Below are positions 43,778 through 47,185 of a DNA stretch of 64,000 nucleotides, piece after piece (position 1 is the stretch's first letter; each line of letters starts with the position of its first letter). Position numbers and translations under genes: made by a program. The stretch spans positions 1,054,001 to 1,118,000 of the forward strand of contig NZ_CP022161.1 of assembly GCF_002214185.1 (NCBI RefSeq), read 5' to 3'. Source of the DNA: Streptomyces capitiformicae. GTDB taxonomy: Bacteria > Actinomycetota > Actinomycetes > Streptomycetales > Streptomycetaceae. The notes below the pieces were generated by a model. The model saw only the letters and a list, made by a program, of their open reading frames with translations. It was not told where the DNA came from and searched no databases.

Positions 43778-43972
43778 CGTCGCAGCGCCGGTGGGTGGGA
43801 TTCTGGCGACGGCGGCGGGGTCGGGCGGTCCCGCGAGACGGTGACCGCGGACGGGAGGCGGTACGGACCCTGCCACTGCTGGGCCCGGGAGTGCGCCATC
43901 CTAGGCCCGAACGACCCGTCTGACCAGCAGATTTCAAGGACGTATACGGGATTGTCAGTGGGTTGGTGTGCA

Positions 43973-46900
43973 ATGGATCCCGTGCCCGCGCTCGAAGAAC
44001 TGCTCAAGAACACGCTCGGCGCCGCCACCGCGAAGGTGATGGCCGAGCACCTCGGCCTGCACACCGTCGGCGACCTGCTCCACCACTACCCGCGCAGATA
44101 CGAGGAGCGCGGCCAGCTCACCCACCTCGCCGACCTGCCCATGGACGAGCACGTCACCGTGGTCGCCCAGGTCGCCGACGCCCGACTGCACACCTTCGCC
44201 TCCGCCAAGGCGCCCCGCGGCAAGGGCCAGCGCCTCGAAGTGACCATCACCGACGGCAGCGGCCGCCTCCAGCTCGTCTTCTTCGGCAACGGCGTGCACA
44301 AACCCCACAAGGAGCTCCTCCCCGGCACCCGCGCCCTGTTCGCCGGCAAGGTCTCCGTCTTCAACCGCCGCCTCCAACTGGCGCACCCGGCCTACGAACT
44401 CCTGCGCGGCGACGACGTCTCCGAGACCGTCGACACCTGGGCCGGCGCCCTCATCCCGATCTACCCGGCCACCGCCAAGCTGGAGTCCTGGAAGATCGCC
44501 AAGGCGGTCCAGACAGTGCTCCCGAGCGCCCAGGAAGCCGTGGACCCCCTGCCCGACTCGCTCCGCGCGGGCCGCGGCCTGGTCCCCCTCCCCGAAGCCC
44601 TCCTGAAGATCCACCGTCCCCACACCAAGGCGGACATCGACTCCGCCCGCGACCGCCTCAAGTGGGACGAGGCCTTCGTCCTCCAGGTGGCCCTCGCCCG
44701 CCGCCGCCACGCCGACGCCCAACTCCCCGCCGCGGTTCGCAAACCCACCCCCGACGGCCTCCTCACCGCCTTCGACGCCCGCCTCCCCTTCACCCTCACC
44801 GAGGGCCAGCGCAAGGTCTCCAAGGAGATCTTCGACGACCTGGCCACCGAGCATCCGATGCACCGCCTGCTTCAGGGAGAGGTCGGCTCGGGCAAGGCCC
44901 AGCCTCTCGACTCGCTGGTGCTCACTCCCGCCGGTTTCCGCCGGATGGGGGACTTGAGCGTGGGGGACGAGGTTGTCGTGCCCGACGGGGAGATCGCGCT
45001 GATCGACGGCGTCTTCCCACAAGGAGAGCGCGATGTCTGGCGGCTGGTGCTGTCCGACGGCAGCTCTGTCGAGTGCGACGACGAGCATCTCTGGATCGTC
45101 GGTACGGGCTGCGGGGGGCACCGAGGGCAGGAACCCAAGGTCATGACCGCTCGGGAGATCCGTCTCGACACCTTCAAGGCAAACGGATCCTCGAAGTGGT
45201 ACATCCCGGCCGCAACCCCCGTCGACCTCGGAGACGATTCAGGACTGCCGTTGGATCCCTACCTGTTCGGCCTCCTCCTGGGGGACGGCTCGTTCCGCCA
45301 CAACCTGCGCTTCTCCACGATCGACGAGGAGATTCGAGATGCCGTGGCAGCCGCGGTCGCGCCGGAATGCCGACTGGTGCCGGTAAAGGGCTCCGGCTGC
45401 GACTACACGATCCAGCTGACGGAACGTGCCGGCGGCGTCCGCAATCCCGTGATCCAGACGCTGCGCGACCTGAACCTGTGGGGTCTCACGTCACCTGGGA
45501 AGTTCGTGCCGGACGACTTCAAGAACACGTCGGTCAAGAACCGTCTGGCCCTGCTGCAAGGCCTTCTGGACACGGATGGCACCGTCCAGGCGGACGGTCT
45601 GAACATCTCGCTCTGTTCGGTCTCGCGCAGGCTGGCGGACGACGTCGCCTGGCTCGTGCGATCGCTGGGTGGCCGTGCACGGGTTCTGCCGAAGCGCGCC
45701 GCATTCAATGTCTCGGTCGCCCTGCCCGAGGAACACGCGCCGTTCCGGCTGACCCGCAAGGCCGACCGCGTACGGGCTCGGCCGAACACGTTTCGACGTG
45801 GAATCCGGGCCGTCGAGCATGTGGGCCGCAAGCCGGTCCAGTGCATCAGCGTCGCCCACCCGAGCCATGCCTACGTCACCGACAACTTCACGGTCACCCA
45901 CAACACCATGGTGGCCCTCCGAGCCATGCTCGCCGTCGTCGACGCGGGCGGGCAGGCCGCGATGCTCGCGCCCACCGAGGTGCTCGCCCAGCAGCACCAC
46001 CGGTCGGTCACCGAGATGATGGGCGAGCTGGCCGAGGGGGGGATGCTGGGCGGGGCCGAGCACGCCACCAAGGTGGTGCTGCTCACCGGTTCGATGGGCG
46101 CCGCGGCCCGCAGGCAGGCCCTGCTGGACCTGGTCACCGGCGAGGCGGGCATCGTCATCGGCACCCACGCGCTGATCGAGGACAAGGTGCAGTTCCACGA
46201 CCTGGGCCTGGTCGTCGTGGACGAACAGCACCGCTTCGGCGTGGAACAGCGCGACGCGCTGCGCGGCAAGGGCAAGCAGCCGCCCCACCTCCTCGTCATG
46301 ACGGCCACCCCCATTCCGCGCACGGTCGCCATGACCGTCTTCGGCGACCTGGAGACCTCGGTCCTCGACCAACTCCCCGCCGGCCGCTCACCCATCGCCA
46401 GCCATGTCGTACCGGCCGCCGACAAACCCCACTTCCTCGCCCGCGCCTGGGAGCGGATCCGCGAGGAGGTCGAGAACGGCCACCAGGCGTACGTGGTCTG
46501 CCCCCGCATCGGCGATGAGGAGGACGACCCGAAGAAGGCCAAGAAGTCCCCCGAGGACGAGGCCGAGAAGCGCCCACCCCTCGCGGTCCTCGATGTCGCC
46601 GACCACCTTGCCAAGGGCCCGCTCAACGGCATCGAGGTCGAGGTCCTGCACGGCCGTATGCACCCCGACGACAAGGACGCCGTGATGCGCCGCTTCGCCG
46701 CCGGCGAGACGCACGTCCTGGTCGCCACCACGGTCATCGAGGTCGGCGTCAACGTTCCGAACGCCACGGCGATGGTCATCATGGACGCCGACCGCTTCGG
46801 CGTCTCCCAGCTCCACCAGCTCCGCGGCCGGGTGGGCCGAGGCTCGGCAGCGGGCCTGTGTCTCCTGGTTACCGAGATGGCCGAGGCCAGCGCGGCCCGC

Positions 46901-47185
46901 CAACGCCTCAACGCCGTCGCAGCCACCCTCGACGGCTTCGAACTCTCCCGCATCGACCTGGAACAACGCCGAGAAGGCGACGTACTCGGCCAGGCCCAGT
47001 CCGGCGCCCGCACCAGCCTCCGGATGCTGGCCGTCATCGAGGACGAGGAGATCATCGCGGAGGCGAGGGAGGAGGCGGCGGCGGTAGTGGCCGAAGACCC
47101 GGACCTACAGCACCTCCCCGGCCTGCGCACGGCCCTGGACGCCCTGTTGGACGAGGAGAGGGAACAGTACTTGGACAAGGGTTGA
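43973..47185 (+). CDS. recG: ATP-dependent DNA helicase RecG, interrupted by an intein
   Basis: RecG regresses stalled forks and processes Holliday junctions. The precursor is 1070 residues; removing the intein (residues 309-644) leaves 734, normal for actinobacterial RecG. The N-terminal wedge/OB domain spans about 1-200. Helicase motif I is LQGEVGSGK (extein residues 300-308) joined, after splicing, to TMVALRAM. Motif Ia is LAPTEVLAQQH, motif II VVVDEQHRFG, motif III MTATPIPRT; the second RecA domain has VLHGRMHPDDKDAVM, ATTVIEVGVNVPNATAMVI and the QLRGRVGRG motif. ATG 43973 is preferred over longer open frame. Divergent from the HSP90 gene. Confidence 0.97.
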   Translation: MDPVPALEELLKNTLGAATAKVMAEHLGLHTVGDLLHHYPRRYEERGQLTHLADLPMDEHVTVVAQVADARLHTFASAKAPRGKGQRLEVTITDGSGRLQLVFFGNGVHKPHKELLPGTRALFAGKVSVFNRRLQLAHPAYELLRGDDVSETVDTWAGALIPIYPATAKLESWKIAKAVQTVLPSAQEAVDPLPDSLRAGRGLVPLPEALLKIHRPHTKADIDSARDRLKWDEAFVLQVALARRRHADAQLPAAVRKPTPDGLLTAFDARLPFTLTEGQRKVSKEIFDDLATEHPMHRLLQGEVGSGKAQPLDSLVLTPAGFRRMGDLSVGDEVVVPDGEIALIDGVFPQGERDVWRLVLSDGSSVECDDEHLWIVGTGCGGHRGQEPKVMTAREIRLDTFKANGSSKWYIPAATPVDLGDDSGLPLDPYLFGLLLGDGSFRHNLRFSTIDEEIRDAVAAAVAPECRLVPVKGSGCDYTIQLTERAGGVRNPVIQTLRDLNLWGLTSPGKFVPDDFKNTSVKNRLALLQGLLDTDGTVQADGLNISLCSVSRRLADDVAWLVRSLGGRARVLPKRAAFNVSVALPEEHAPFRLTRKADRVRARPNTFRRGIRAVEHVGRKPVQCISVAHPSHAYVTDNFTVTHNTMVALRAMLAVVDAGGQAAMLAPTEVLAQQHHRSVTEMMGELAEGGMLGGAEHATKVVLLTGSMGAAARRQALLDLVTGEAGIVIGTHALIEDKVQFHDLGLVVVDEQHRFGVEQRDALRGKGKQPPHLLVMTATPIPRTVAMTVFGDLETSVLDQLPAGRSPIASHVVPAADKPHFLARAWERIREEVENGHQAYVVCPRIGDEEDDPKKAKKSPEDEAEKRPPLAVLDVADHLAKGPLNGIEVEVLHGRMHPDDKDAVMRRFAAGETHVLVATTVIEVGVNVPNATAMVIMDADRFGVSQLHQLRGRVGRGSAAGLCLLVTEMAEASAARQRLNAVAATLDGFELSRIDLEQRREGDVLGQAQSGARTSLRMLAVIEDEEIIAEAREEAAAVVAEDPDLQHLPGLRTALDALLDEEREQYLDKG
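44897..45904 (+). mobile_element. Class 3-type intein with LAGLIDADG endonuclease in RecG
   Basis: An in-frame 336-residue insertion between Lys and Thr of the RecG Walker A motif (VGSGK/T). It begins AQPLDSLVL, so residue 1 is Ala, and ends FTVTHN followed by +1 Thr. Block B reads GSSVECDDEHLW: His64 and Trp66 (B:12). Block F reads PVQCISV: Cys316 (F:4). Block G has Thr334 (G:5), His335 and Asn336. Trp-Cys-Thr at these positions is the signature of class 3 inteins, which use the block F Cys in place of an N-terminal nucleophile. The centre is a homing endonuclease with two LAGLIDADG motifs, LFGLLLGDG (catalytic Asp130) and LQGLLDTDG (Asp227). All splicing and cutting residues look intact. 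Confidence 0.95.

Follow-up and report, generated by a model that had tools for sequence, protein, structure and literature searches.

A class 3 LAGLIDADG intein in the RecG Walker A motif of Streptomyces capitiformicae, predicted to splice and home, as part of a natural decay series

We analyzed a 64,000-nucleotide stretch of the Streptomyces capitiformicae genome (contig NZ_CP022161.1, positions 1,054,001 to 1,118,000 of the forward strand; hereafter the window), in which recG is interrupted by an intein. An open frame of 1114 residues (43841-47185) scores 1127 bits against the NCBIfam RecG model NF008167 (cut-off 995), which identifies the host protein as RecG; reading from the ATG at 43973 gives 1070 residues, matching S. 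canus record P0002 in length, and 734 residues after predicted splicing. The RecG Walker A motif is split in frame between Lys and Thr (GEVGSGK/TMVAL): the Lys codon ends at 44896, Ala1 of the insert starts at 44897, Asn336 ends at 45904, and the +1 Thr is encoded by 45905-45907, with Ala at the start of the insert and Thr-His-Asn at its end. An earlier note on this DNA had described exactly these limits, and the 336-residue insert is confirmed as real. Insertion at this Lys/Thr junction of Walker A is called a classic P-loop intein site in the available excerpt of PMC5050341. The genome is a single 10.99 Mb contig with one copy of the intein, and a search for a second copy at an expectation value (E) ≤10 returned only a single weak partial match (E 0.15). 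The RecG score, this single contig, and the many relatives in the genus rule out an assembly artefact or a misannotated frame and uphold recG as the location of the insert. A scan gave 80 named loci (the best 80 of 141) with a 68 to 96% relative, 79 of them in Streptomyces and one in Actinacidiphila, and since 43 other full-length copies from the genus share 67 to 91% identity across residues 1 to 336, chance similarity is not an issue.

The insert is a class 3 intein whose LAGLIDADG endonuclease retains Asp130 and Asp227, which we take from the family to be the catalytic Asp residues (Table 1); both had been recognized in the earlier note. Position 1 is not Ser, Thr, or Cys, as expected for class 3, but Ala, here and in all 70 recG-site copies collected from the genus (see below). 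The class 3 Trp-Cys-Thr (WCT) triplet consists of Trp66 at block B position 12, a feature listed as class-defining in the excerpt of PMC3196547, Cys316 at block F position 4, and Thr334 at block G position 5. In the alignment, their counterparts in the M. smegmatis class 3 DnaB intein of solved structure (6bs8) are Trp67, Cys118, and Thr137. Ala1, Asp61, His64, Trp66, Cys316, and the terminal THN are found in 70/70 recG copies, and His64, Trp66, Cys316, Thr334, His335, and Asn336 are invariant across 43 inteins that were picked and aligned. The residue numbers given in the earlier note (Ala1, His64, Trp66, Cys316, Thr334, His335, Asn336) and its assignment to class 3 by the triplet are thus borne out by alignment and conservation. 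Its description of class 3 as a small group fares less well, as the same genus holds WCT inteins in PhoH-, DnaB-, UvrD-, Clp-, and VirD4/TraG-like proteins. The endonuclease is matched by Pfam LAGLIDADG_3 (E = 8.6e-9) and combines two motifs carrying acidic residues with the domain fold.

The predicted model of the 336-residue intein (predicted local distance difference test score, pLDDT, 93.8) has a Hint fold, lies within 1.5 to 2.0 Å of class 3 DnaB splicing domains, and is matched over its full length by PI-SceI, the yeast VMA intein. Fold Z scores are 20.3 and 19.7 for the class 3 structures 6bs8 and 6rix, 19.0 and 18.8 for gp41-1 forms, and 16.3 for the class 3 AceL NrdHF intein; with the gp41-1 forms within ≈1 Z unit of 6rix/6riy, the fold does not discriminate class 1 from class 3. 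Gp41-1 forms are also among the best Protein Data Bank sequence matches (6riz, an engineered WCT form; 6qaz, class 1), and both points favor a class 1 origin, with Cys1 lost and only a resemblance to class 3. We consider such an origin exceedingly improbable in view of Ala1 in every recG copy and the complete triplet, and set aside a class 1 assignment on these residues alone.

Table 1 Features of the intein-bearing recG gene (window coordinates)
Feature	Position	Strand	Remarks
recG coding sequence with intein	43973..47185	+	NCBIfam RecG score; length of S. canus record P0002; putative start codon
N-extein, 308 residues	43973..44896	+	Ends in ...QGEVGSGK, first part of Walker A
Class 3 intein, 336 residues	44897..45904	+	
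Block B region, residues 54-68	45056..45100	+	Alignment to 6bs8; Asp61, His64 (45086-45088), Trp66 (45092-45094)
LAGLIDADG homing endonuclease domain, residues ~111-269	45227..45703	+	Predicted limits
LAGLIDADG motif 1, LFGLLLGDG	45263..45289	+	Asp130 at 45284-45286
LAGLIDADG motif 2, LQGLLDTDG	45554..45580	+	Asp227 at 45575-45577
Block F region	45833..45880	+	Cys316 (45842-45844), predicted initiating nucleophile; pairs with Cys118 of 6bs8
Block G, Thr334-His335-Asn336	45896..45904	+	THN in 70/70 recG copies and 43/43 aligned WCT inteins
C-extein, 426 residues	45905..47185	+	First residue +1 Thr, doubling as Walker A Thr

Mycobacterial class 3 DnaB inteins (MsmDnaBi1, 6bs8; MchDnaB1, 6rix) share with the recG intein the WCT triplet, a block B DxxH, the THN end, a P-loop site, and the Hint fold, but MsmDnaBi1 is a mini-intein that lacks an endonuclease and resides in DnaB ahead of a +1 Ser, whereas the recG intein has a LAGLIDADG domain and a +1 Thr. 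PI-SceI likewise joins splicing and LAGLIDADG domains but differs in host, is 18% identical, and follows class 1 chemistry. Mycobacteriophage TerL1-a inteins split Walker A at the same Lys/Thr bond, in this case in a phage terminase (PMC5050341, excerpt). Actinobacterial class 3 PhoH inteins, already in print in the excerpt of PMC6195587, have the same architecture with endonuclease in the same genus at 38 to 41% identity but occupy another host and site (MRGR/TLN) and form a separate clade. RecG itself appears among intein hosts in the table of a 2018 review (PMC5874633), listed with no class, species, or site in the available passage, and a literature search with most subscription papers and InBase outside its reach found no description of a class 3 RecG intein. 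The earlier note knew of no well-described RecG intein of this class; as a host, RecG is already in that table. The intein belongs to a class that is already known, its host has been listed in print before, and its value lies in the natural series described below, not in the single copy.

We assign a probability of roughly 0.9 to the reading that a class 3 LAGLIDADG intein occupies the RecG Walker A Lys/Thr site and is predicted to splice and home. Cys316 would attack the Lys-Ala1 bond and take the N-extein as a thioester, assisted by His64, Trp66, and Thr334; the N-extein chain would then be transferred to the +1 Thr, Asn336 would cyclize with the help of His335, and an acyl shift would rejoin GSGK to T, restoring ATP-binding RecG. 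For homing, the endonuclease half is predicted to cleave intein-free recG alleles at the insertion site, and repair would then copy the intein in. Splicing by this copy and cutting by its endonuclease are both predicted from sequence, which leaves some room for a dead insert, tolerated as RecG is dispensable; RecG is non-essential in many bacteria. Arthrobacter has a class 3 pseudo-intein (PMC3196547, excerpt), a further point in favor of decay, but that pseudogene lacks the Cys at F:4, whereas all recG copies keep the catalytic residues, the reading frames continue through the insert, and the exteins are still constrained. We regard a dead insert as very unlikely.

The intein is no rarity in Streptomyces. 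Matches at E ≤1e-5 are found in 120 of 392 genomes, and at least 70 of the 392 carry a copy at the recG site, as identified among the matches listed. The earlier note had raised the matter of empty recG alleles in relatives, and these were found computationally: an intact empty site, with the pattern GEVG(S/T-like)GKT(M/V)VA, is present in 204 genomes, none of the 70 intein genomes also shows this pattern (tables compared by eye), and 118 genomes fall in neither group. Actinacidiphila oryziradicis (L259) carries the intein at the same recG site. A class-wide scan of 394 genomes, Streptomyces included, gave matches in 95 at E ≤1e-10; 15 of its 25 new loci could be typed by motif, as three recG (Streptomyces already counted), 11 PhoH, and one other helicase (L164), and the other 10 gave no motif output. 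Public RecG records also carry the insert, with names and lengths fitting in the 120 listed, one of which was opened.

We mapped the intein on a FastTree phylogeny of 138 exteins, comprising the 70 with intein and 68 fetched from the 204 empty sites. Presence and absence require 26 changes, 19 of them forced by starred branches, versus 46 in shuffles; the intein is thus clustered yet patchy. Such counts do not distinguish gain from loss. An approximately unbiased (AU) test of eight groups rejected four (L013+L015 inteins, L015+L042 exteins, L010+L013 exteins, and L001+L003+L007+L031 inteins). Together, the 26 changes and the conflicts between some intein and extein groupings indicate that the intein moves. 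Consistent with this, the intein of the window copy (L001) lies nearer to those of L003 and L007 than its extein does (silent divergence 0.143 and 0.150 for the intein, 0.245 and 0.205 for the extein), opposite to the general trend.

Several observations weigh against this picture of a mobile element. The remaining AU tests were nonsignificant (L004+L006 exteins, p 0.15; L011+L056 inteins, p 0.18; L018+L030 inteins, p 0.55; L025+L031 exteins, p 0.60), and every tested group was chosen with the trees already in view. Mean silent divergence (pS) over 2415 pairs is 0.543 for the intein and 0.358 for the extein; on average the intein is the more diverged, and most pairs therefore reflect no recent transfer. 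Ordinary recG recombination without homing could produce some of the conflicts, and no clear co-conversion tract is seen by the site (0.24 in 22 transfer-like pairs versus 0.36 in control pairs), a comparison confounded by overall divergence; we rejected a co-conversion tract as proof of homing as both weak and confounded. Finally, the window copy is 336 residues long versus 338 to 339 in the other 43 full-length copies. Its two-residue gap lies before block F, at 45770-45790.

Codon usage is in line with the earlier note, which had seen more A/T-ending codons in the insert than in the exteins: G+C at third positions (GC3) is 0.827 in the insert versus 0.943 and 0.928 in the flanks, and 0.847 versus 0.932 and 0.952 over the 70 copies. 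GC3 of the splicing part is 0.823 in the 44 full-length copies versus 0.923 in the 19 copies below 300 residues (Spearman 0.64, raw data), but this rise toward host values with erosion is not significant, with only four independent pairs on supported branches.

The recG inteins range from mobile-looking to worn-down, with splicing residues unchanged throughout. Of the 70 copies, 44 are full length (336-339 residues), seven have 300 to 327 residues, and 19 have 247 to 295; the 26 shortened copies are mostly reduced within the endonuclease, to a minimum of 247 residues. Asp130 and Asp227 are both present in 42/70 copies and in 37 of the 44 that are full length, Asp130 being replaced in the other seven. 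Median pN/pS (nonsynonymous relative to synonymous divergence) in full-length copies is 0.16 and 0.08 for the splicing halves, 0.25 for the endonuclease, and 0.16 for the extein, versus 0.37, 0.37, 0.63, and 0.26 in copies below 300 residues, figures that are relative only, given the partial saturation of synonymous sites and the extreme codon usage. The model of an eroded 251-residue copy (L075; best pLDDT 91.1, the other four 79-82) shows secondary-structure elements at both ends similar to those of the window model, and an endonuclease helix-strand remnant persists. The changed Asp130 residues, the shortened copies, and the excess intein divergence all lend weight to an intein that splices but in this copy no longer homes, being inherited with recG with an endonuclease intact by its letters only. 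Set against this are both Asp residues of the window copy, the endonuclease pN/pS of full-length copies, the closeness of its intein to those of L003 and L007, and a GC3 that fits recent arrival without proving it. We judge a non-homing copy to be a serious but somewhat doubtful alternative to an intein that still homes.

Twelve species form a clade of eroded inteins that is recovered in both the intein and the extein trees, with L071 placed differently inside it in the two, and this clade is consistent with descent without homing. Its members all retain the catalytic residues, and the 68 empty alleles sampled all lie outside the clade. These observations, with Cys60, a residue near the active site kept in 68 of the 70 copies, and the inhibition of the M. 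smegmatis class 3 DnaB intein by oxidation (PMC6195587, excerpt), would suit an intein that now acts on RecG as a redox or stress switch and that endonuclease-free lineages retain on its own merit. Several points argue otherwise: eroded copies have the higher pN/pS in the splicing half (0.37 versus 0.16), and Cys60 is not special to RecG, because Cys occupies that column in 33 of 43 WCT inteins from several hosts. Precise intein loss is thought rare, and persistence thus needs no benefit. We therefore hold a stress or redox switch to be unlikely, and retention specifically as a conditional-splicing switch, for example through Cys316 and Cys60, to be more doubtful still; if true, a mobile parasite would have turned into a regulator of fork repair. 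What the genus does provide is an unusually complete natural decay series, with empty alleles and full-length, changed-Asp, and eroded copies at one site in one culturable genus (70 copies, 204 empty sites, 392 genomes). This series opens the homing-cycle model and the persistence of endonuclease-free inteins to experiment, and a large collection of class 3 splicing domains becomes available for chemical and engineering work.

Among 20 non-recG loci fetched in the genus, 15 are PhoH-like by shared MRGR/TLN flanks (Pfam PhoH confirmed on one, L080); the other WCT hosts are one UvrD-like, one DnaB, one Clp-like, and two VirD4/TraG-like proteins. In a tree of 43 WCT inteins (the window copy, 25 other recG copies, eight PhoH, and nine others), in which several deeper joins are flagged as long-branched, the recG copies form a single clade whose sister is a Rhodococcus plasmid intein (100/99). 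The latter lies in a 1225-residue RecG-like protein of the R. rhodochrous plasmid NZ_CP120357, typed as mobilizable (L162:1603-5280), and is a class 3 intein of 45.5% identity at the same Walker A site (GDVGSGK/T). Its host protein scores 648 bits against NF008168, under the cut-off of 718, and differs from the window RecG in being plasmid-borne and in another genus. This topology is consistent with homing among recG copies combined with carriage on a mobile plasmid.

A direct phage donor was rejected: all 661 phage records that match the intein are below 60% identity, the best-ranked one (39%, among the best 60 of 661) is placed next to the PhoH inteins by a join with a long-branch flag, and viral contigs gave two loci at 34 to 35%. 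A phage may still have been the source of this intein, while the sister of the Streptomyces recG inteins lies in the plasmid RecG-like protein. In phage matches H1/H2, H11/H12, and H20/H21, intein-bearing proteins whose GenBank copies read terminase, gyrase A, or helicase are called "DarB-like antirestriction" in RefSeq, a label for which the intein probably accounts.

Near the insert, sigma-70-like promoters number 0 versus 0.2 in shuffles and terminators 1 versus 1.3. Outside the genus, the L164 intein (G658:C20, 15739-16812), a 47% relative, begins with AQPMDSL and splits the Walker A motif HPVGAGK/T of another helicase, and thus has the same N terminus as the recG intein in a different host. 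Plasmid matches H65-H69 place a 38% relative, over the whole intein, in the TraD region of enterobacterial plasmids, four of the five with no gene listed there. Finally, L096 (G128:C2:10105070-10110140) and L095 are WCT inteins that share one VirD4/TraG-like site but differ at position 1, with Ala in one and Cys in the other, and Cys1 together with the class 3 triplet is an odd combination.
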